Made by a program: the position numbers and the translations under genes. 64,000 nt of DNA from Metridium senile (taxonomy: Eukaryota > Cnidaria > Anthozoa > Actiniaria > Metridiidae). Location: positions 14,079,179 to 14,143,178 of the forward strand of contig OX459107.1 in NCBI GenBank assembly GCA_949775045.1, written 5' to 3'. The notes under the pieces were generated by a model, which was not told the DNA's origin, did no database searches, and saw only the letters and a program-made list of their open reading frames with translations. Below, piece after piece: positions 12,304 through 47,078 of the stretch (position 1 is its first letter; each line of letters begins with the position of its first letter).

Positions 12304-17853
<5,550 letters not shown>

Positions 17854-22748: not shown

Positions 22749-25700
22749 ATGGTTGCACTCAAGTTAGCCTTGCTTTTGAGCCTACTTCTTCAAGTCGAAG
22801 GTACGTACAATTACTCAATTTAAGCGTCAACATTTCATATAATAATGTTACATATATAACAATAGTTTTAGGAGATAAAGCATCTAAATATAAGCTATAT
22901 GTTTCACATGTGAAAAAGCGATACGTCCAATCAGCGTCAAGAACACACTTTCGCACATGTGAGAAATATAACCAATCAGATTTGAGAACTGAGAGTCTCA
23001 GCCAATCAGGAAACGAGAGAAAAACACCTGATTGGCTTTCCCGGCCAAAGAGCGAAAAGTGTTTTGAATCAATGTTTGAAATAATAATGAAGGACTGCTT
23101 TGGGCTGTTAATTTGTTTTTTCAGGTACTTTCATACATTTACATTTTATTTTTATTTTTTTTCTACTTGTTATTATGAATGATTTATTTGTAATAATTGA
23201 ATAGCTATTTACGTAAACCCTACAGAGGCTGAGTTTGAGCCGAGAAAACCGTGAAATGTTTTTATACTTTTATATATTTTGGATAAAGATTTACTTTCCT
23301 CTCCCTCCCCCTAAGGTAAAGATGGTTGTAGAGATCTCCAATACCTCGAGTGCATTGGAAACAAGACCTTGACAGGTCACGTGATCGATTCCTCCAGGAT
23401 GGTAACACCTGTCAAAGCCAATTGTCAGAATAAGTGTTACCATGACAACAGGTGTGTGTCGTATAACTTGGGCCCAGTAGGTGGAGTAACGAGACAGTGT
23501 GAGTTGAATGCCGCTGACCACTCGAGCCGACCCAGTTTCTTCGTGGACAAAACAGGCCATGAATATTGTCCAATAAAGGTTAGTAAGTAAGTAAGGAAGT
23601 AAGGAAGGAAGGAAGGAAGGAAGGAAGGAAGGAAGGAAGGAAGGAAGCAAGTAAGCAAGTAAGCAAGTAAGCAAGTAAGCAAGTAAGCAAGTAAGCAAGT
23701 AAGCAAGTAAGCAAGTAAGCAAGTAAGCAAGTAAGCAAGTAAGCAAGTAAGCAAGTAAGCAAGTAAGCAAGTAAGCAAGTAAGCAAGTAAGCAAGTAAGT
23801 AAGTAGGTGAGTAAGAGGGTAAATAAGTAGGTGACTAAGTAGGTAAGTAAGTAAGTAAGTAAGTAAGTCAGTAAATAAGTCAGTAAATAAGTAAGTAAAG
23901 TTCTCATTCTTTCCCAGAATCCTTGTCTGTCCAAACCTTGTCCTGCAAGACTTTGTATACCTGACTTTGATTGGGACACGTTCAACTGTGATGGTGAGTA
24001 TCAGTTAATTGCTCTTTTAAAAGCTACTAAAGCATGTTACCAATACAGTAAACACCCGCAAGTAAGAACCTGAAAATTAAGAACTTGTTAGCCTCAAATT
24101 TGTCATTTATACCCGCTATAATTTAGGCTAACTCCAAAAAATGTAGGTTCTTACTTGCCGGTGTTTACTGTAGTATATGTACGCACGCACGCAAGAAGTC
24201 AGGATATTCAAAGGGCGCGTACATCGTTCCAAGAATGCATTTTTTCAAGCTTAACTTTCATAATTGTTGCTACACCAATTTCAATAAACGTGTAAATTAC
24301 AATTTATTCTCGTCCACTTGAATAGCACTGAATTACAGGTAATTAACTGTATTTTAAAATTTTAATTCAATTTTAAACATTGATATTTAAGCGTTATTAT
24401 AATAGTGCAATTACAATTTATTCATCCACTTCCACAAATCCTATCTGTCTTAGATCAGCCATTTGTACAATGTAGATCTTAAAGCTCGTACTACATAAGA
24501 ATCGGCTTAGAAATTAAAGGCCACCACAAAGAAGAAGTGCTTAATGTATCTTTTTGACTCAGGTGGAGGCTGGACGCAGTGGGGTCCGTGGCAATGGACA
24601 CTCTGTTCTCGGCTTCCATCGAGCTGTGTTCCAAATGCAACAAGGACAAGAACATGTACAAGTCCTGCACCACAGAACAACGGTGCTAGTTGTGATGGAC
24701 CAAGTGATGACACAAAGCAGTGTGAACCACTACCACACGTTAACTCCGTTAACACAACTGGTAACAATCACTTTATTATTAGATAAAAAATATTTGTCTG
24801 AAACGTTTTACCATTTTTAGCGGTTAAAACTGCTAGTTTTTGATCATTTTAACTCAATTTGTTATCTCAGAAACATCGACGCAGTTCCCATTAGTTTCAA
24901 GATTCATGGTCGCGCGCGCTTACCGGCATGTTTTGCATTGTTGTTGTTTTTTATTTGAATGTTATGATTAATTCAGTCAGTCGTGTTAGCAGAAAACAAA
25001 TAAAACAAAACGCTAAACGATTTAGCAAGAGCGTAAATACCCACTCACATCGTAAAAGATATAAAAATGTCTGAATGGCGATTTTTATGGTCCAGGAAAT
25101 TCAGTCTTTTGCGCGGTGCATGCTAGTAAGTGACACAACTATAGCTAGTTATCGTACATTTTTACTCCATGCAATTGTTTCCTTAGAAACACTGACGCAC
25201 AAAAAACATTAGTTTAACCGCTAGCTATTGTACATTTTTATTCCAATTGTTTCCTTAGAAACATTAAAGAAGTCCACACTAGTTTAACCGCTCGTTATCG
25301 TACATTTTTACTCCAATTGTTTCCTTAGAAAAACTGACGCAGTCCACACTAGTTTAACCGCTAGTTATCGTACATTTGTACTCCAATTGATTCCTTAGAA
25401 ACACCGACGCAGTCCACATTAGTTTAACCGCTAGTTATCAAACATTTCACTTCTGGTATTATCTTTGTTTGTTGTTTTTAAGGCTGTGAAAAGGCATTAG
25501 GAATGGAAGACGGAAGAATAACAGACCAACAGATTACAGAGTCATCTTGCAAAAACGATCATCAATTTTACGAAGGAAGGTATTTCTTGTTGTTTATTTG
25601 TTTTGCCTGGGGGATGGGAGGGATATGTGCCGCTGAATAGGGCATATTTTGCAGTACAGCACAACTAGGAAAAAAACTGTATGCCATCACCAAAACTCGA

Positions 25701-35482: not shown

Positions 35483-35491
35483 GCAATGATG
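35483..35491. other. Left 9-bp target site duplication GCAATGATG
   Basis: GCAATGATG directly precedes the TAGCCTGCAG terminus at 35,492 and reappears directly after the opposite terminus at 47,070-47,078. A matching 9-mer at both exact borders of an inverted-repeat-bounded segment is the signature of transposition. Confidence 0.8.
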
Positions 35492-35769
35492 TAGCCTGCA
35501 GAGCAGGCGTTCTTTTGGCTTTTTGGAGAATTTAGGATTTTGGGCTTCCTGTTTTACTTTTTTGACCGCGCGAAATATGGAGCTTAGCCAAAAATGGAGT
35601 GTGGGGGGGGAGGGGGAAGGGAGAGAAGGGAACGCCTGCCCGCAGCCATTGTCTTTTTGTGCCACTCGTTCGTGGACGAACGAACGTCGCTGATTGGCTC
35701 TTGTCGACCAGTTTGACAAGTGACAAAGACAAGTTTGACAAACAAGAGTTTCCAGTCGTAGTTTTCAAA

Positions 35770-37955
35770 ATGGCGGATTATAGACAAGATTTTTGTAGCG
35801 CGTTAGATAGTGTTTTGGATTCATTTGAGTCACACTTAGGCTTTCGTTTTGAGCTTAAATCCGAGCAGAGACAAAGTGTCGAGCAACTTATTTATCGAGG
35901 AGACCTTCTTGCCGTTTTACCGACCGGCTTTGGTAAAAGTCTGATTTTTCAACTTCTCGTACCGATGAAGAAAATCATGTTGAAGAAAAGTTGTTGTGTT
36001 CTCGTAATTTGCCCGCTGAAAAGCATCATCGAGGATCAAGTGGCCGAAGCAACGTCCTTGGGCCTTAAAGCTGGAGCCATAAGCGATGTGAAGATGGAGG
36101 ACGGAGAGCTTGCATCTTACGATTTATTGTTTGGATCGGCTGAGGAAGTTCTACAAAAACGATTATTGGCCATTCTCAAGAAAACCGGTTCCAAACTATG
36201 TGGAAATATTGTGGCCGTTGTTGTCGATGAATCGCACACTTGCGAAAGTTGGACTGGTTCAAGGTAAATTATACAAATTCGCTTTTCTACGGGTATTTGC
36301 GGAGTTAGACGAGTGCTCAAGTGGTCTTCACTAATGCGAAGTAATTATGCAATATATTTCATTTTCAATGCTTGAAGCATTCAAATCATTTTTAATTTCA
36401 GGGAGACTAAGAAAGGAAAAGCATCGCATGCCTTCAGGGAATCATTTGGCCAACTAGCTAACCTAAGATCTTACTGTCAACCAGGTAAAATTATACATTT
36501 CCATGACGAATACCAGTTTGGAATAGCTCTTAGAATTGACTCACAAACCCTCAAAATATTCCACTGTATAATTAATTAATTTATTAAGTATAATCAATTG
36601 TTATTGTTATTTTTTTTTGTAATATTGGCCTTAAAGCAATCAAACATTGCCAATTAAAATTTAGATTCAGATATTTACATATTCATACTATATACAGTGT
36701 AGTTATGTTCCTAAATTTCCTTTCTTTCATTTCTATTTTAGGGACTCCTGTGGGTGCCATTACAGGAACTGCTGACACAAACACCCAGCAAACAATAAAG
36801 ACTGTTCTTTGTCTAAACAAGCCATTGACAATTTACGTGAGCCCAAACAGGCCAAACCTTAGATTTACCGTAAAGAAGGTGAAGAAAGCAGGTTACTTGA
36901 AACAACTGCAATGGCTTGTCGAGATGGCCAAAGACTTGGGATCACAAACACCGAAAACAATAATATTCTGCACAGTCATGAATGACATGGCCTCTGTCGT
37001 TAACTATTTAGTGTCCCAATTGGGAGATGCACTGTATGCAACTCCAGATAACAGATCACCAGGAAACGCTATAATAGGCATCTACCACTCCAACTCCTGG
37101 CAATCAATGAAAGACAGAGTTACACAATCATTCAAAGGTAATGGACACAAACGGATTGTGGTGGCAACCACTTCATTGTGTATGGGGGTAAATTTCCCCG
37201 ATATCCGTTATATAATCAACTGGGGACCTCCTAGGTCAATTCTTGACCAACACCAACAATCTGGAAGGGCTGGCAGGGATGGTCAACAATCACATGTGGT
37301 TGTGATTTACCATGGGCAGCAGGCAAGCCCTTGTGAGAGAGAAGTCAAAGAATTTATTCGTGCTGAGGGTTGCTTGCGTGTTTCTGCATACATTTCTCTC
37401 GATTCTGAAATCAAACCAAGCAGAGTTCAACATGACTGTTGCTCAAATTGTGCAAGGGAATGCAAATGTGATGGAGAAAGGTGCAAGCAGGAATTGTTAC
37501 CATTTGACAAAAATCTTGAGGAAAAAAGTGTTTTCCAGGATTTACCCAAACGAACTGTTTCCGCTGAGGACAAAGCAGACCTGAAGAATGCTCTTGTTGA
37601 AGTTTTGCATGAGTTGCAAGGAAAGAGTGTTGGATTGGACAAAGATTCTACTGAATGGTTTTCTATGGCACTTATTGATGACGTTGTCCAACATTGCAGT
37701 ACCATATTCTCTATAGATGACTTGATTAGACATTTCCCTGTTTTCTCATTTGTCAATGCTTTACGAGTACTTGAACTCATTCAAGAATTGTTTGAGGATA
37801 TTCCGTCATTGGATGAAACTGTGTCCCTCCTTATGTCCAAAGGAATGTGTTTGGATGTTAGCCATGTGAACAATATTGATTTTGGTGACCATTCCATTTA
37901 TGATGACAGGTCAGATAGTGACATTGATGAACTGGCAAGTATGCTTGAAATGTAG
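35770..37955 (+). CDS. RecQ-like SF2 DNA helicase (transposon-borne)
   Basis: Three exons, 596 residues: 35770-36263, 36402-36484, 36742-37955 (stop TAG), GT/AG borders, phases 2 and 1. Residues 25-40 resemble a RecQ motif 0. Walker A LPTGFGKS is at about 50-57 and motif Ia (CPLKSIIEDQV) at 81-91. The DESH box (VVVDESH) is at 151-157, motif III as AITGTAD near 198, motif IV IIFCTVMND, motif V (ATTSLCMGVNFP) near 335 and motif VI QQSGRAGRDGQ near 361-371. A Cys/His cluster (CCSNCARECKC) near 424-434 stands where RecQ proteins bind zinc. HRDC is not seen; residues 440-596 are helical and unassigned. All catalytic motifs are intact, so an active 3'-5' DNA helicase is expected. Start ATG at 35,770 (AAAATGGCGG) is preferred over the in-frame upstream region, which is TIR sequence. 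Likely serves transposition rather than the host (inference). Confidence 0.93.
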
Positions 37956-38337
37956 ACTAATTAACAAAGGTATGACAGATTTGTGAATAACTTTTATTGT
38001 ACTTGATTAAAATAGTCAATAAGATTAGCAACTTATCCAGGTGAAAGCCTGTACAAGAATTGTATTCAAATTATAACTCTTATAGTTCTTCTTTCGCCTG
38101 GATAAGTTGCCAATCCAATCGTCGACGATAAAGTTGTGTTTTCTGCCATTGACCATGTATCATTTTGACATTTTGTACAACATTCAAAAAATCAAAAAGA
38201 ATAAATTTGACATCAATGCAGAAAAAATACATATATACATGTGAAAGGGGTTCATTATTATTATATTCTGTCCAATGCATGATTTTATAATAAATGTAAA
38301 GAAGTTAGACCACATTCTCTTGCCATACACAATTATA

Positions 38338-40343
38338 GCGGAGCTCCCGCGCGGGCCGAAGGCCCGCGCGAGCGAAGCACCATACTTAAGAAAAAATGGT
38401 AATGCATCGAGTCTATTTTCGATGGTTTTTACACAGGTATCCCAAGCGTACGTCCGACGTCCGACGTCCGACGTCCGACGTCCGCGCCCATCGCGATGCT
38501 GATTGGCTGTTACATTTCGGCGGGAACAAAAGTGACGCGCGCGCCAAATAGCACTAGACCAACAAAGCAAAGTTTTCTTTTATCTTAAAAAAGGCAAACA
38601 AACAACAACAAAATACTACTTGCTAATAGCAGAGCTTTCATTAATTCAAAATAACAACGGAGAAAGATGAACTTCGAAGAACATAAAGAGAGTTGTGACC
38701 GAAGAAGAACATAAACTTGAAGGACATAACAACGAAGAAATTATACTAAAGAAAAGCAAAAGACTGATTCCAAAAGATCAAGAAAACGTATTTGCAGATA
38801 CCTTCGTGGAAGAATATTAAAAGACTACAGCAATTCAAAACAAATTGATAAAGAAGCGACCTTGTTTGTTATGAAAACTGTCTTCAAATTGCTTCCCTCG
38901 GCACAGTTTATTGAAGGATTTTCAAGCTTGGCAGTTGAACTATGAACAATGTTTAATCCATCAAAATTCAAGTACATAAGCTTACATATATTCGTCAAAA
39001 TATGATCAATGTCATTGAAGAAAGAAAACCTCAAGAAAATAATCACCGATAAAGTAAGTTCAAGTGTTTTTTATTATCCATGGTTCAAGATTATCATTTG
39101 TTTCAAGTTTTTGAGAGACAAAACTCAAAAATTAGTTCAATCTTCAATGAATTGAAATACAAACATAATTTAAAATTGGTTGAATAACTTCTGTTTATTT
39201 AGCAATATTAACTATTTTATGCTTACTAAACGAGCTTTTTTAGTAGTTTTTACTTCAAAGTCGTTAAAGTTTTTTTTTACAGAACAAAATGATGTTTTAC
39301 ACAAAGTTTTTCATAATAAAATACCTTGTTTTAAAATCCTTGTCTTTTCAAATCGATCTTGTGTTGGTAGAACTTATAATTCTTGAGGCGTTTAATTCCA
39401 TTTCAAAATAACTTTTTGTTTTGTTTTATGATTTGCCATGACTACTTTTTAATAAATCTAATACGATGAAAAGGTTTAACCTTTTCTATCCGGAATCCTA
39501 ACTAACTTTGGAAAATAAAAGAAGGTAAAAAGCGGCCGTAAAACGACTGTTCAGCCAAAGCACTTTTTCAAGGCGTTATCAAAAGCAAAATAAGCTTAAT
39601 GACTTAAAAATAAAAGGGATAATAATAAGGCTATTCACACTATCGTTTGGGAATCGTATTTTCCATCAAAAATATTTCTGTATTTTCCATCAAAAACATT
39701 TCTGAACACTTTTTTGTCTGAACAACACTATTGACTGAAGTGACAGTTGAAAATTTGAGAAAAAGATGAAAAAGTGCATAGAATGAAAACGATAACCAAC
39801 CTAAGAAAAAGCAGTGGAATTTATTACAATTTTTTTACTTACATTAAATCAATTTCCATTCATGAATTGTCCATTAACATGCTTTTATCGGACTTTTTTC
39901 AATGAGAAATCTCCGTCCCTCGTGTAAATGACAAACTTTCCTTTCGTGCGTTGCGTTACATGATGGCGTCATCTACATCGATAGCCAATGAGGTTTTTGA
40001 CATTATGTCAATCAAAAAGAGAGCGAGAAATATCTTACATTTTACTGGCTTTTCCAGGGCTTTGTTTTGATTCTCTCTCCGCGCGATGATCGAATCTCCG
40101 AAAGGTTATATTTTTCGATGAAAAATGCTATATAAATTACAATAAACAGTAAGTTGTATAATAAATCCCTTATTAGATATTTTTTTGGGTATTACGGGCT
40201 GGCATTTTACTCATTGCTTGCTGATTAAACGTACGCAACTCGTAAAATATCAGCACGTATATTATACCCAAGAAAATATATAATAAGTGGTATTGACATG
40301 CACATATTGATGTTGTAAGAAAAAATTAAACTGGGAGCTCCGC
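38338..40343. mobile_element. Nested 2.0-kb non-autonomous element, GCGGAGCTCCC termini, TA flanks
   Basis: GCGGAGCTCCC at the left and GGGAGCTCCGC at the right are perfect short inverted termini with TA on each side (38,336-37; 40,344-45). Inside are a GC-rich hairpin (CGCGCGGGCCGAAGGCCCGCGCG), a CGTCCGACGTCCGACGTCC minisatellite (38,449-38,483) and AT-rich sequence without a credible gene. Near the right end ATTTTACTC...CTCGTAAAAT forms an inverted pair. It lies between the converging helicase and DUF6589 genes. Confidence 0.7.
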
Positions 40344-40847
40344 TATTAGGTATTACCTAATTTGTATATTAGTTTTTAATTGAGAGAAATAACACTTGAA
40401 TATATAACTATAGTGCACCAATGAACCCTCTGAAAGCTGCAAAACTCTAGTTACAAAGCAAATCTATTTCTATTATAATGAGTACTATGTGACAGCACTG
40501 ATTATATAGTACTGTTTCACAGGTTCATTGTCTGTACTTTTAAACTTTGTTTCTATGTGTTCATATGGACTTAAATAACTTGCAAATACTTGAAGCTTTG
40601 ACTGGTTTTTTTTATCACAACAACAATTTGGGCTGCATCTGAAAGGTGTATATGATAAGTGAATAATACATGTAACCACCTTCAGTATATGTTTCCTCAC
40701 TTTGATTATAATTAGTGTTATTTTTATGTCATTGTTACATGTAATATAAACGTTTTGGAACACTAACTTGAAATTTGCAATACAACTGTAACATATTGAT
40801 GTACATATAAGCACATCTTATTCATCTCAATCTTGTGTATATTTAAC

Positions 40848-40945
40848 AATTATTCGTCGAAGGCGAAGTGATTATCGGTGAATATCTACCGAAGGGCGAG
40901 TCCTCCAGCCGTGAGGTAGATATTTACTGATAATCACTGAGCTTG
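40848..40945. repeat. CGAAGGCGAAGTG hairpin repeat (copy 2)
   Basis: AATTATTCGTCGAAGGCGAA then TGATTATCGGTGAATATCTACC pairing with GGTAGATATTTACTGATAATCA. A diverged copy of the repeat at 34.66 kb; located downstream of the DUF6589 gene inside the transposon. Confidence 0.75.
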
Positions 40946-41108
40946 AGCTTGAAACCTCAACACAAAATGAGAATTTCAATCGTTTTATTTTGACAAAATG
41001 ACAGATAATCGAAAGTGAAAATACCGAGCGTGCGCTAAATGACGTGTGACGGCAACTCAAAATGCACGAAACTGTGCTCATATTTTAATATATGAATGTC
41101 ATTTACAA

Positions 41109-44100
41109 TTAATTGTTAAAAATTGATCCCCAAAGGTCTACATGTTCTTTAATATAATTATGCAAGTTTCTATAGTCAAGACCATGTAACAAGCTACGCT
41201 CAAACTTAGGAAATGATGGGTACTCTCTGCCAGGAATAATTTGAAAAACTTTGTGTTCCATTAAGTCCTGTACAATTTGTTGCACTGCCTCTTCTTCTCC
41301 AGCGGATGATCTGTTCCTTGAATGGTTGTCCTTCTCACAGTCTCTGTCTACTGATTCATAAATCACCTCCATACTCTCAAGAGATCCTGCAGTCCTTTCA
41401 GCATTTATCTCGTCTAAATTTGCACCCAAGGCACGCCACATGGTTTTCAGTATCCTGTTCTGTTGCTCCTTCTTTAGATCTAGGGGTATATTCTTTCCTG
41501 GAATGCCTCTACCATTATAAAATCTATTCCATTTCAGACGTAGTGCTTGTGCTGGGGGGAGAATTGAGATGCATTTCACGAGGTAGAGTAGAACAGCATA
41601 AGCATATTTGTAATGCCCATGGTTGTGGTATAACAGCAGAGCTAGTTTGTACACCTCATATAGCCTTTCGCCGTCACCTTCTTTGATTGCATCAGATAAT
41701 TCAAATAAGATTAGACCAAAAGATATCTTGGCACTGTGGTAGTTAAATTTGTAGTCAACAGGTTTGACATCACTGGCGGACGGAGATGGCTCATTTTCTG
41801 GTAAATGCTGGTCATGCTGCTTCTGCTCATGTCTACATGAAATTAAACAAAACAAATGAATCACATTGAAGTAGACCTGAATAATAGTCATTTGAGAGTT
41901 GTCACCCTAGCTTATGTGGCGTGTAATATATTCTGTAGAAATTGACTACTGTCCACAGCAATTACTACACAGCAATTACTACACAGCAATTACTACATAG
42001 CATTCCGAGTAATGCACACAAACAGATGAAACTTCAAAAATCCACTGAAAAATATATTACACACTTAGAGGCTGCAGCGACAAAAGCTATTAAAAGGAGC
42101 AGGAACGAATATTTTTCGAAACACAAATAGTGAGGGTTATTGTTTTTACAGCATTCAATTAGGCTTCCTCTTTTGAAAATAGAGTTTGTTCTTTTTCTCA
42201 AACTCATGAATAATTAATGAAGAGAAAACAAAGAAAAATCACCAGGGTGAAGGAGTTTGAAATCTGGTCGAGAACATTGCATAAAATTAAGCCAACTCCG
42301 CTTTGAACATTTACATCTTACACTAAATAATGTTTACCTGTTTCTTGTTGTCGTTGTTTTGAATACTTGACCACATCGCATTCTACAGTAGTAGTAACCA
42401 AAGTTATCTCTATCCGTCCCATTGTCAAATGTCAGTTGGTGAACTTGTGTTTCATGCCTGTATTGTAAATTAATGAAAATGTGTATAAATATAATATTAC
42501 TACCGGTACTATAATACAAATACTTATTTATTTTTGTTTTCATTACATTTTTTGTCAAATAAAGCATGGAGAATCACCATCATCATCGTACACATGGGAG
42601 TTTCATCTCCACTCAGGCTGTCTCTTAAACAGAAGTTATTAATCATTATTATCATTATTGTAGTAACTAGTATTATTTTTACTTTCATTATCATTATAAG
42701 CAATTTTGATTATTAATATATATATTATTAAGCTATTAATGGCCATTGTTATTAATATTTACCTCACTCTTCCTGAGTGGTAGACAAATTGAGCAGTACA
42801 GCCTTCCTCTCTGCATTTCCAAGTAGATTGATTGGCAGCTTCTTGTAATTCACTGGTTTGGTTGACTAAGCCACTGAGCTCACCCCTGTCAAACACAAAC
42901 TTCTCCACATGCTGCTTACAAATTTCTAGCAACCACTGAGATTTGGTTCCATGGGATACTGTGGCATCAGGTAACACTAAATTTGGCTGGTCTGAAATGA
43001 ACATGAGAACAAAATAATAGTATTATTGTAATATATTATAGATAAAATCTGTATGTCAAAAAAGGCTAAAGTCAAGGGACTTAAGTCGAATAGGTCACTG
43101 AGATTTAATCATGACAACAATTAAAAATTAAAACAATTAAAAATTCAGTTACATATTAATTTCAATATTTTTTGGTTTCAAATTGGCATGTGAGAAGTGA
43201 TTGGAAAATTTTGAACTAGGCCTGATTGGACGATCATGCCTATTACGCCTGGGATCAGACCATTCACTCTTAATATGTATAGCATTACCATCAATTGTTT
43301 TCATGCCATGCATCTCCATAAAGGATGCACATATATGGGCTTCAATTTCCCTTGAATGAAACTCCGAATACTCATTGTAATGGTTTTCTACACCCTTTGA
43401 AGCATTGGTTTTGCCTGTGCGGTTGATACTAGCACGGGTTGTCCCTATCTCCCCAGCCGATGAATGGTCGACAAACAATTTGAATTCAAGCTGTTATAAA
43501 TAAGAATGGAAAACAATGATTTAGACACTGATTTTAAAGAAAACAAATAAATGATATCTCCTATACATGTGTAGAGAGTGCAAACACTAAAAGTGTGAAA
43601 TAATACTAAATAAGTAGTACAAAATAGCACTAATAAAACAATATAAAACAAGGGAATTTGCATGATTTTAGATTTAGTACTATTTCATACTTTTAGTCTT
43701 TGCACTTGAGTGAGTCATTGATTGATTACTAATTAGTACAAAATATTACACCTACTAATTATTGTTGTACCAATCAGATATAACATTACATTGCCCTTTA
43801 CAAAAATTTAAAATAATCATCACCTTATAGAGAGTGTACTTGGCATGCCAGTCTGCAAACTCGGTGTCTATTCCTTCTAACCGTTCATAGGAACTATCTC
43901 CATCTTGATATGTCCAAATAACATTCCGGGCTCGCTCCTCAAACAGCTGATCTCCATGTAGAGGTATGGTTTCCAACACAACTTTGCCTGTGTCTTTGTG
44001 GAGGCAAGGCACAAACTTCTCCTGGTCATGAATTAACAACTGGGCCATATCTCCAGAGACATTTGGGTTCAGAAATTCCATACCCAGACAGCACTGACAA

Positions 44101-46613
44101 AGAAATTAATGCAATCTGCTTTAGAAAATGGTGCTCTCATGATATATTTATTACACAGACATAGAATTAAGACCTGAGGAAAAACACAGCACATTGTAAC
44201 AATTGCTCGGTACTGATCGATTTGTATAGGTAATAGCATGTTATTTAGTGATATTTGGCATAAATACCAAAATTGATAATCCAAAATTATTAAACAAAAT
44301 ATCACAAGCCCAGATATTGAAATTAGGGATAATTTTCACATATATTTATGATAAATATGACTACAAAACATGCTATTATTATAATATGGTTCAATAACAT
44401 TCTGCAATTCTGATCACGCGTCATTTGTATGTTAACATGAAAAAATGACTTCTTTATTGCATTTTTAAATCATGTGATTTTATACAAACTGTTTAAAATA
44501 TTTGCAATTAACATCTTATAACAGTAACTCTATTAGCTCAACAAATTTCAGAATTTTATTGAACTATATTTTAGATATGTAGAATAAACACATAAAAATG
44601 CAAAAACACTTACAGTCTGAGATTTAGTTGCCATTTCTTTTTTAAACTGGTGTGGCACATGACGAACAGCAGCATTCTGTAGAGCTTGAAAGTGTTTCAA
44701 GTACTTAGTTACAATCCTGCTCACAATAATGGCAAAATTATTCAGGAGATGTTCTTGTACTTCTTGGTTAGGTAGAAGCTCCACAAACTGGATTTCCTTG
44801 GTGGGCTTTTGGGCCTTCTTTCTATCTAGATTGGGATCTTGCACTTTGTCAAGTATTGCAAACTGGTGAGTCCAATGTATGGACTGGTTCTTGTGTTGTG
44901 TAGATTGAATACGAGCATGTATTTCATGATCCAAATTGTCTCCCACCAGTCTGTGTACAATAGAGATTGAAAGTAAGAAAAATTACTTGATCTAGATCAG
45001 AAAATAAATTAGTAATCAGCATTATAATTATCTAGTGTATTAGATATTGTTACATTTATCCCTGAGCCCTGGATTACATTTTTATGGTAATATTAATAAT
45101 CAATTATCATTATAATAAAATCAATTATTATCATTTAATACATACATTCAATTTCAATCTTAGTGTAGTTATGTTTTATAATTATTACTATTGTCATTGT
45201 TTTTTTTTTGCTTTTTATTTCTATTCTTGTTATGCATGAACAAATAATAACTTACTTGTATAGTGGTAGGATTGTAGTTTGAAGACAGTTAATGACAGAA
45301 TCCAAACAGCCCTTGGTATGGTACAACTCTCCCCTTCTCTGTTGCTCCTCATCCATCAGCTTAATAAGTAGATTGAAAGAATCGTCAGTAAACATGCTAT
45401 GCCCCTCTAAAGTGACTCTAGTAGTGTCTATACTATCGTCTTGGACACCTTCATCTTGGGTTGGTTCAACGGATGGTTCATGACAATGTTTTACTTCTAC
45501 ACATAATGCAAGAGTGGATCTATTCTTCACGATTTCTTCTTTCCAAACTTGCACTTTACTTTCTAATGTCTCACCCATTTTTCGCTGCAGACGAATAATT
45601 GAGTCTGGAGAGACACTAACTCCTAGTCGATTTAACCGAACTAAATCTTCATATCTTACACCACTGTGGAATAGAATAGTAGAAATCCTGTAGTGCAATG
45701 CAGAAAGACTACTGTTTCGCACTCTCACAAGAGTCGCGGTAGCGAGAGCGGCAGCGTTGATGTTGTAGCTACCAAGATATTTAAGGTCCGTCTCCTTTAA
45801 GCCACATGCTCCAAGGACTAAAGTATACCAAAGAGGGCAATATACTTTGATTTCTTTGATGAAGATTCTGTTTGAAAATCCTGCGATTTCGTCCGGGCTT
45901 TTTAAGTCTAGCATACTACCAGACTTTAGGTATTTCTCAAACTCAGAAGACACCTTCGTTCGAATAGCAGTGTTCAAGTCTTCTTGCATTTCATGATGCT
46001 TGAGTACAGCATTAGATGCCGCACTCCAATTCCTCAGTGCAATTTGCTTCACGAGAGATTTGCTGTCCTCATCTCGTGGGATGCGAACGACTACATTGCC
46101 ATTTGGGTTTCGCAAAACAACTTTTACTTGAAGACCATCACTAGGTAAGTCGTCAATGTTAAGATATTCTACGTCTTTTTCGGCTGCAGAATATTGCCCG
46201 CTGAGTGATTTCCTTACTTGCCGCGAGGGACTTTTTACCTTGGCCGCTTTAGATCTTCTCCAAGACGGGCTCGACTTATCCGGCGTTTCCAGAGGTCGCT
46301 TTCCTTGAGATTTCAACGGGGTTGTAGTAACGTATACTTTGCTTTTCACAAAGCTATACAACTGTCCAAGATTCCTTATTTTTCTTGCACACGGGTTGCA
46401 GCAACGTTCTGAACAGTTGTTGTTCTTGGCTATTGTAAGGCCTACTTCTTCGCAAATGTTTGCGAGGACGATCCCCAGCGAGTCTTTCCTTCTAGATGGT
46501 TTAAATAAATTTTCGTAAGAAATAAAAGATGCCTTTGCAGTGTTCAAATTTCCAAATTTAACTTTGAAGTAACAATTACAGAATCTACAATACTCGTTTG
46601 CTTTGCAATCCAT
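41109..46613 (-). CDS. DUF6589-type protein with Cys-cluster N terminus and two C2H2 fingers; candidate transposase
   Basis: Seven exons, 1,079 residues: 46613-45256, 44950-44614, 44093-43824, 43490-43289, 42991-42763, 42457-42338, 41832-41109; GT/AG and phases 2,0,0,1,2,2 agree. The exon 4 donor (GATG|GTAATG) is the best of several in frame. N terminus: Cys pairs at 3-14 and near 69-77 (ZAD/zinc-like). The core matches my memory of DUF6589: GDNLDHEIHAR (456-466) with SIHWTHQFAILDKV, then LHGDQLFEERAR (610-621), LEGIDTEFADWHAKYTLYK, and C-terminal RGIPGKNIPLDLKKEQQNR (about 946-964). Two C2H2 fingers (782-805, 822-844) are spliced into the middle. Asp457 and Asp613 in GDN/GDQ boxes are plausible catalytic acids of an RNase H-type fold (inference). 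Intact. Position in a TIR element makes it the likely transposase; a host gene is less likely. Confidence 0.85.
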
Positions 46614-46784
46614 GAAAACACTTCGAAATATATTTTTGACACCGTTCCACGTGTGTCATGTTTTTATCGGAAGTGTTTTTTTACTTCCGTTAAAATAAAT
46701 CTCCATTGTGATTGGCTATTTTTGACAGCTCGAAATTCGATCGATGCATAACTAATTAGGAGGCGTATTTCAAAATCACAGGGG

Positions 46785-47069
46785 TTGCGGGCAGGCGTTC
46801 CCTTCCCCTCTTCCCCTCCCCCACCCCCTTCGCTTCCTTTTCGCTCGCCCGTTCAACACAGGAAGCCCAAAACCCGATTTTTCCCAAAAAACCCCAAAAT
46901 ACAAAAAAACGCCGCTCGCCCGTTCAACACAGGAAGCCTAAAACCCGATTTTTCCCAAAAAACCCCAAAATACAAAAAAACGCCGCTCGCCCGTTCAACA
47001 CAGGAAGCCCAAAACCCGATTTTTCCCAAAAAACCCCAAAATACAAAAAAACGCCTGTCCTGCAGGCTA
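46785..47069. repeat. Right terminal inverted repeat with 3x71-bp tandem expansion
   Basis: Three copies of a 71-base unit (CGCTCGCCCGTTCAACACAG ... CCAAAATACAAAAAAACG) start at 46,842, 46,913 and 46,984, followed by the terminal CCTGTCCTGCAGGCTA. The left TIR has one corresponding unit. An inner GCGGGCAGGCGTTCCC mirrors the outer AACGCCTG, so each TIR contains its own small inverted repeat. Confidence 0.85.
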
Positions 47070-47078
47070 GCAATGATG
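47070..47078. other. Right 9-bp target site duplication GCAATGATG
   Basis: Identical to 35,483-35,491, immediately outside the GGCTA terminus. A further ATG follows, so the pre-insertion site was probably AAGCAATGATGATGTATTG. Confidence 0.8.

Follow-up and report, generated by a model that had tools for sequence, protein, structure and literature searches.

What kind of mobile element carries a RecQ-like helicase gene and a DUF6589 gene between inverted ends, and which of the two proteins moves it, is the question raised by a locus in a 64-kb stretch of Metridium senile DNA (the window; positions are counted from its first nucleotide). We consider it to be a DNA transposon that looks autonomous and belongs to the AcademH lineage (Academ superfamily), with a probability of about 0.92. 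This reading is based on discrete ends, 9-bp duplications, unlinked near-identical copies, derivatives, open genes and a recurrent convergent gene pairing. The assignment to AcademH, in which we have high confidence, was made against the printed description of that group.

The transposon unit extends from 35492 to 47069 and has TAGCCTGCAG inverted at both termini. These two copies of the motif (35492-35501 and 47060-47069, in opposite orientation) are the only ones in the 64-kb window, and none of 100 shuffles of the window contained two (shuffle expectation 0.08). With imperfect pairing (76% complementary), the terminal inverted repeat can be followed for 46 nt, and more inverted matches occur subterminally. 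The inverted termini and the duplication at the exact borders announced in the original prediction are thus seen directly. The features of the element are the following.

35483-35491, no strand: left target site duplication, 9 bp, GCAATGATG, adjoining the left TAGCCTGCAG
35492-35537, plus strand: left terminal inverted repeat, a perfect match over the outermost 10 bp (TAGCCTGCAG); end shared by five other copies
35770-37955, plus strand: RecQ-type SF2 helicase gene, 596 aa, spliced open frame, exons 35770-36263, 36402-36484 and 36742-37955
roughly 38335-40371 (approximate borders), no strand: unrelated high-copy repeat, ~2.03 kb, inserted within the element and no part of the element proper
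41109-46613, minus strand: gene of the DUF6589 protein, presumed Academ transposase, 1079 aa, seven-exon spliced open frame with a Pfam match, exons 46613-45256, 44950-44614, 44093-43824, 43490-43289, 42991-42763, 42457-42338 and 41832-41109
46842-47055, no strand: 71-bp unit in three tandem copies by the right end, the length differing among element copies
47024-47069, minus strand: right terminal inverted repeat; same end in six other copies
47070-47078, no strand: right target site duplication, 9 bp, GCAATGATG, adjoining the right TAGCCTGCAG

The helicase gene (three exons, plus strand) and the DUF6589 gene (seven exons, minus strand) are convergent and both open, as had been proposed, in predicted models whose splice sites were set by hand. 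When both proteins were searched against Pfam, the 596-aa protein matched DEAD (8.1e-14) and Helicase_C (1.9e-14), and its best match among solved structures was the Bloom syndrome protein (6.9e-27), with RecQ and WRN also found. Since these are its closest solved relatives, we regard it as a RecQ-type SF2 helicase, in agreement with the initial description. Its relatives (the best 120 of 245) include Montipora, Acropora, Oculina, Dendronephthya and two fishes. Residues 511-1006 of the 1079-aa protein correspond to Pfam DUF6589 (8.9e-32), and no other family was found in that protein at E values up to 1; for KDZ (Kyakuja-Dileera-Zisupton) transposases, of which Pfam has a family, the same scan likewise gave DUF6589 as its one match. 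Neither protein contained a nuclease family or a Rep/PIF1-type domain in the Pfam scan (E up to 1). An initial search yielded nine relatives of the DUF6589 protein, among them Paramuricea, Exaiptasia, Clytia and one brittle star, Amphiura.

Does the element move? With its left 1.5 kb as query, the 389-Mb genome gave 46 matches (best 40 of 504 candidates scored): the window itself, six long copies that are ~100% identical over the query, and 39 shorter matches, nearly all of the end region. At least six other copies with the same borders therefore exist in this genome, five of them two-ended. The four full-length ones (c2-c5) measure 9402-9546 bp and are flanked by the exact 9-bp duplications GACTGTAGA, TTGAGCCCG, AAGTCTTTT and ACACAAACT; c1, internally deleted and truncated in both genes, has an 8-bp duplication, and c6 lacks the left end and is left out of the duplication counts. 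Counting the window copy, six copies keep both ends; the duplication is 9 bp long in five of them and 8 bp in the other. Six of the short derivatives were fetched; in two of these both ends were not found, and the other four, 186-1235 bp long, have both ends and a 9-bp duplication each (4/4). Both genes are open in four of the six other long copies; in c2 a stop codon interrupts the last exon of the DUF6589 gene. The near-identical copies, their own duplications and the two open genes uphold the proposal of an autonomous, recently active element: it is real, mobile and young, and probably autonomous.

Its size needs correction. The nested repeat, which has inverted ATAGCGGAGCTCCC motifs and is matched over nearly its full length, at 93-99%, by at least 18 other stretches of the genome, sits between the helicase and DUF6589 genes, both of which stay open. 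The site is uninterrupted in five of the six other copies (c2-c6), and c1 is uninformative because its larger deletion spans the place of insertion. Since the repeat is present in the window copy alone, the typical element is ~9.4 kb long; the transposon originally described as 11.6 kb long stands as a transposon, its typical length having been overestimated because the repeat of ~2.03 kb was overlooked.

The pairing of the two genes recurs throughout the genome. We found a helicase match within 20 kb at 60 of 86 DUF6589 loci, 58 of them convergent, where uniform placement would give ~0.9; many of these loci are near-identical copies and therefore not independent. The 86 loci result from merging 103 Pfam DUF6589 exon matches and the helicase matches (97) come from a genome search with the last exon of the helicase gene, all matches being used in both cases; because both searches score the best candidates, the locus and helicase counts are lower bounds. 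Among 16 hand-picked distinct pairs (one per near-identical group with fetched sequence), transposase and helicase identities to the window proteins are correlated (Spearman 0.76), the helicase identities being rounded and partly taken from short matches. In the C9 pair, reading the helicase showed DEAD and Helicase_C domains. There is also a second family of DUF6589-helicase elements, a divergent one (C3:2692290 and C6:5963667 groups, L080-L083), which has 30-bp perfect inverted ends and a helicase 34% identical to that of the window element in the search with the last exon; both copies read have TACCCTGGGTTCCAGCGGCTCTAGAGGGGA ends and 9-bp duplications (AGCGATAAA and CTGTCACCT; 2/2), measured at borders fixed by the inverted ends. 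Because the pairing is met again in divergent families, the element would seem to need its helicase.

The remaining 26 of the 86 loci had no helicase match within 20 kb among the matches listed. Ten of these have, 814 bp away, an XPG-like stretch within a 926-aa frame, a tally taken from 49 hand-picked listed matches. Five further helicase-less loci share one common profile stretch, and L059, read among them, has a related frame. For the other 11, neither a helicase match within 20 kb nor a nuclease-like frame was found; these are C1:2810227, C1:34739785, C1:35879623, C2:28778292, C4:9885348, C10:9639423, C12:4192499, C15:6380748 and three loci spaced 3.1 kb apart at C8:9829014-9835675. In the 926-aa frame of L058, DUF6589 (3.6e-8) lies close to the beginning, and there is a TCR-like cysteine-rich match that scores under its cut-off. 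Pfam showed no XPG domain in the sister-group frame. We presume the region to be XPG/FEN1-like from its motifs; it was non-significant in every search, exonuclease 1 (E 0.49) and the Xni flap endonuclease (E 0.77) ranking first and second among solved structures for L058.

The DUF6589 element with this XPG/FEN1-like stretch is 6.4 kb long and has TAGTCAGGGAGC ends (C1, C2, C5, C8, C10 and C15; L058, L060). Each of 10 copies, out of 10, is flanked by a 3-bp duplication. The borders were chosen for agreement between the first two copies (TAT, TAC) and then fixed for the eight further ones, which gave GTA, TAC, TTA, GTT, CCT, ACA, TAT and AAT. It looks like an AcademX element.

AcademH is a known, little-studied group, and a 2020 article by Kojima (Mobile DNA 11:15) reportedly, to go by its title, deals with AcademH from animals and fungi. 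According to a published account, AcademH makes duplications of 9 or 10 bp and AcademX of 3 or 4 bp, a difference that seems related to the encoded helicase in AcademH and nuclease in AcademX (PMC10045372). Like AcademH, the window element has a helicase (596 aa) and mostly 9-bp duplications, and we found no difference between the two when matched on the printed description. AcademX has in common with it the DUF6589 domain, as far as the AcademX-like helicase-less group is concerned, and differs in its 3- or 4-bp duplications and its nuclease, the window element having a helicase and duplications of 9 bp. Because both halves of the printed statement recur in one genome and with one domain, we file the element as AcademH. 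The helicase-bearing branch of Academ that the original prediction had mentioned was thus the right one, helicase and 9-bp duplication fitting AcademH as printed (PMC10045372).

Could a transposon of another superfamily have a helicase of this kind? KolobokH, with its DDD/E transposase and RecQ helicase, is one such candidate, and we hold this reading to be very improbable. Kolobok elements make TTAA duplications, whereas those found here are 9 bp long and varied in sequence. In its favour, one report describes a RecQ helicase encoded by KolobokH of fungi, and one on the complementary strand of a rhodophyte Kolobok, so that a DDD/E transposon with a RecQ helicase occurs there as here (PMC9587614). 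Against it, a sister group with 3-bp duplications exists here within the very same family of transposases, as printed for Academ (PMC10045372). DUF6589 as the sole Pfam family in the 1079-aa protein (E up to 1) also speaks against Kolobok.

Helitrons have a helicase, of Rep/PIF1 type, and are not known to make a target duplication. A Helitron-like element, in which the helicase would be the mobility enzyme and DUF6589 a passenger or regulator, has in its favour that the helicase is the better characterised of the two proteins and accompanies DUF6589 at 60 of the 86 loci. We give this even less credence than KolobokH, as the window element has inverted ends, duplications of fixed length (9 bp) and a protein of RecQ type rather than Rep/PIF1 type, and as a DUF6589 element with no helicase match within 20 kb still gives clean 3-bp duplications. 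Two host genes between chance repeats, or an assembly artefact, found nothing in their favour and would be next to impossible to reconcile with six other near-identical copies, five of them two-ended with their own duplications and different flanks, and with short derivatives sharing the same ends.

Returning to the AcademH reading, we consider the DUF6589 protein likely to be the transposase of the element, as first suggested; its linkage, its conservation and the exchange of the enzyme that accompanies it all point that way. A candidate triad, D457, D613 and E961, is conserved in the alignment of relatives: D457 in 9 of 10 rows, D613 in all 10, and E961 in all eight rows that have a letter there. 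Among distinct loci of the same genome that cover each site, D613 is present without exception (20 of 20), as is E961 (25 of 25); D457 is covered in only two, with D in both. Other acidic residues (D646, D865, D886, D892 and D957) are equally conserved, so that we infer this particular triad rather than read it from the alignment. A structure model of a DUF6589 homologue, poor in quality (mean pLDDT 64.8), gave no match to the RNase H fold. DUF6589 is most likely the transposase domain of Academ, with indirect support from the 3-bp, nuclease-like sister group that has the same domain. No mention of the word DUF6589 was found in the literature searched. On this assignment, a Pfam domain of unknown function would be tied to the Academ transposase.

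In the mechanism that we propose, the DUF6589 protein would act as a DDD/E transposase using the candidate triad. It would bind the TAGCCTGCAG ends, cut the element out and insert it at a target whose strands are cut 9 nt apart, the gaps then being filled by host repair to leave the 9-bp duplication. The RecQ-like helicase would most likely act on DNA alongside the transposase: it might separate strands at the ends or at the target, or it might remodel the strand-transfer intermediate ahead of repair.

A further possibility, which we regard as doubtful, is that the partner enzyme, and not the transposase alone, sets the chemistry. An exchange between a RecQ helicase and a FEN1/XPG-like nuclease, in either direction, would have shifted the stagger between 9 and 3 bp, the helicase being obligate in the transpososome and unwinding the target, which would place the two cuts at a distance of almost one helical turn. 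The obligate unwinding is our own extension of the printed relation between length and partner (PMC10045372). Because DUF6589 occurs in one genome either with a helicase and 9 bp or with an apparent nuclease and 3 bp, the published suggestion of a link between partner and duplication length can be put to the test.

The likely DUF6589-Academ transposase assignment, the corrected size and the contrast of 9-bp and 3-bp duplications within a genome are what this analysis adds to a known group. The family itself is very young and probably complete. Represented by several near-identical copies within a single animal genome, it offers a convenient entry point for experiments on the movement of helicase-bearing transposons. 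Elsewhere in the window, two tandem arrays (13754-13988 and 25144-25447) consist of similar units of ~70-90 bp in opposite orientation, ~11 kb apart, and, judged by eye, might be the termini of another element.
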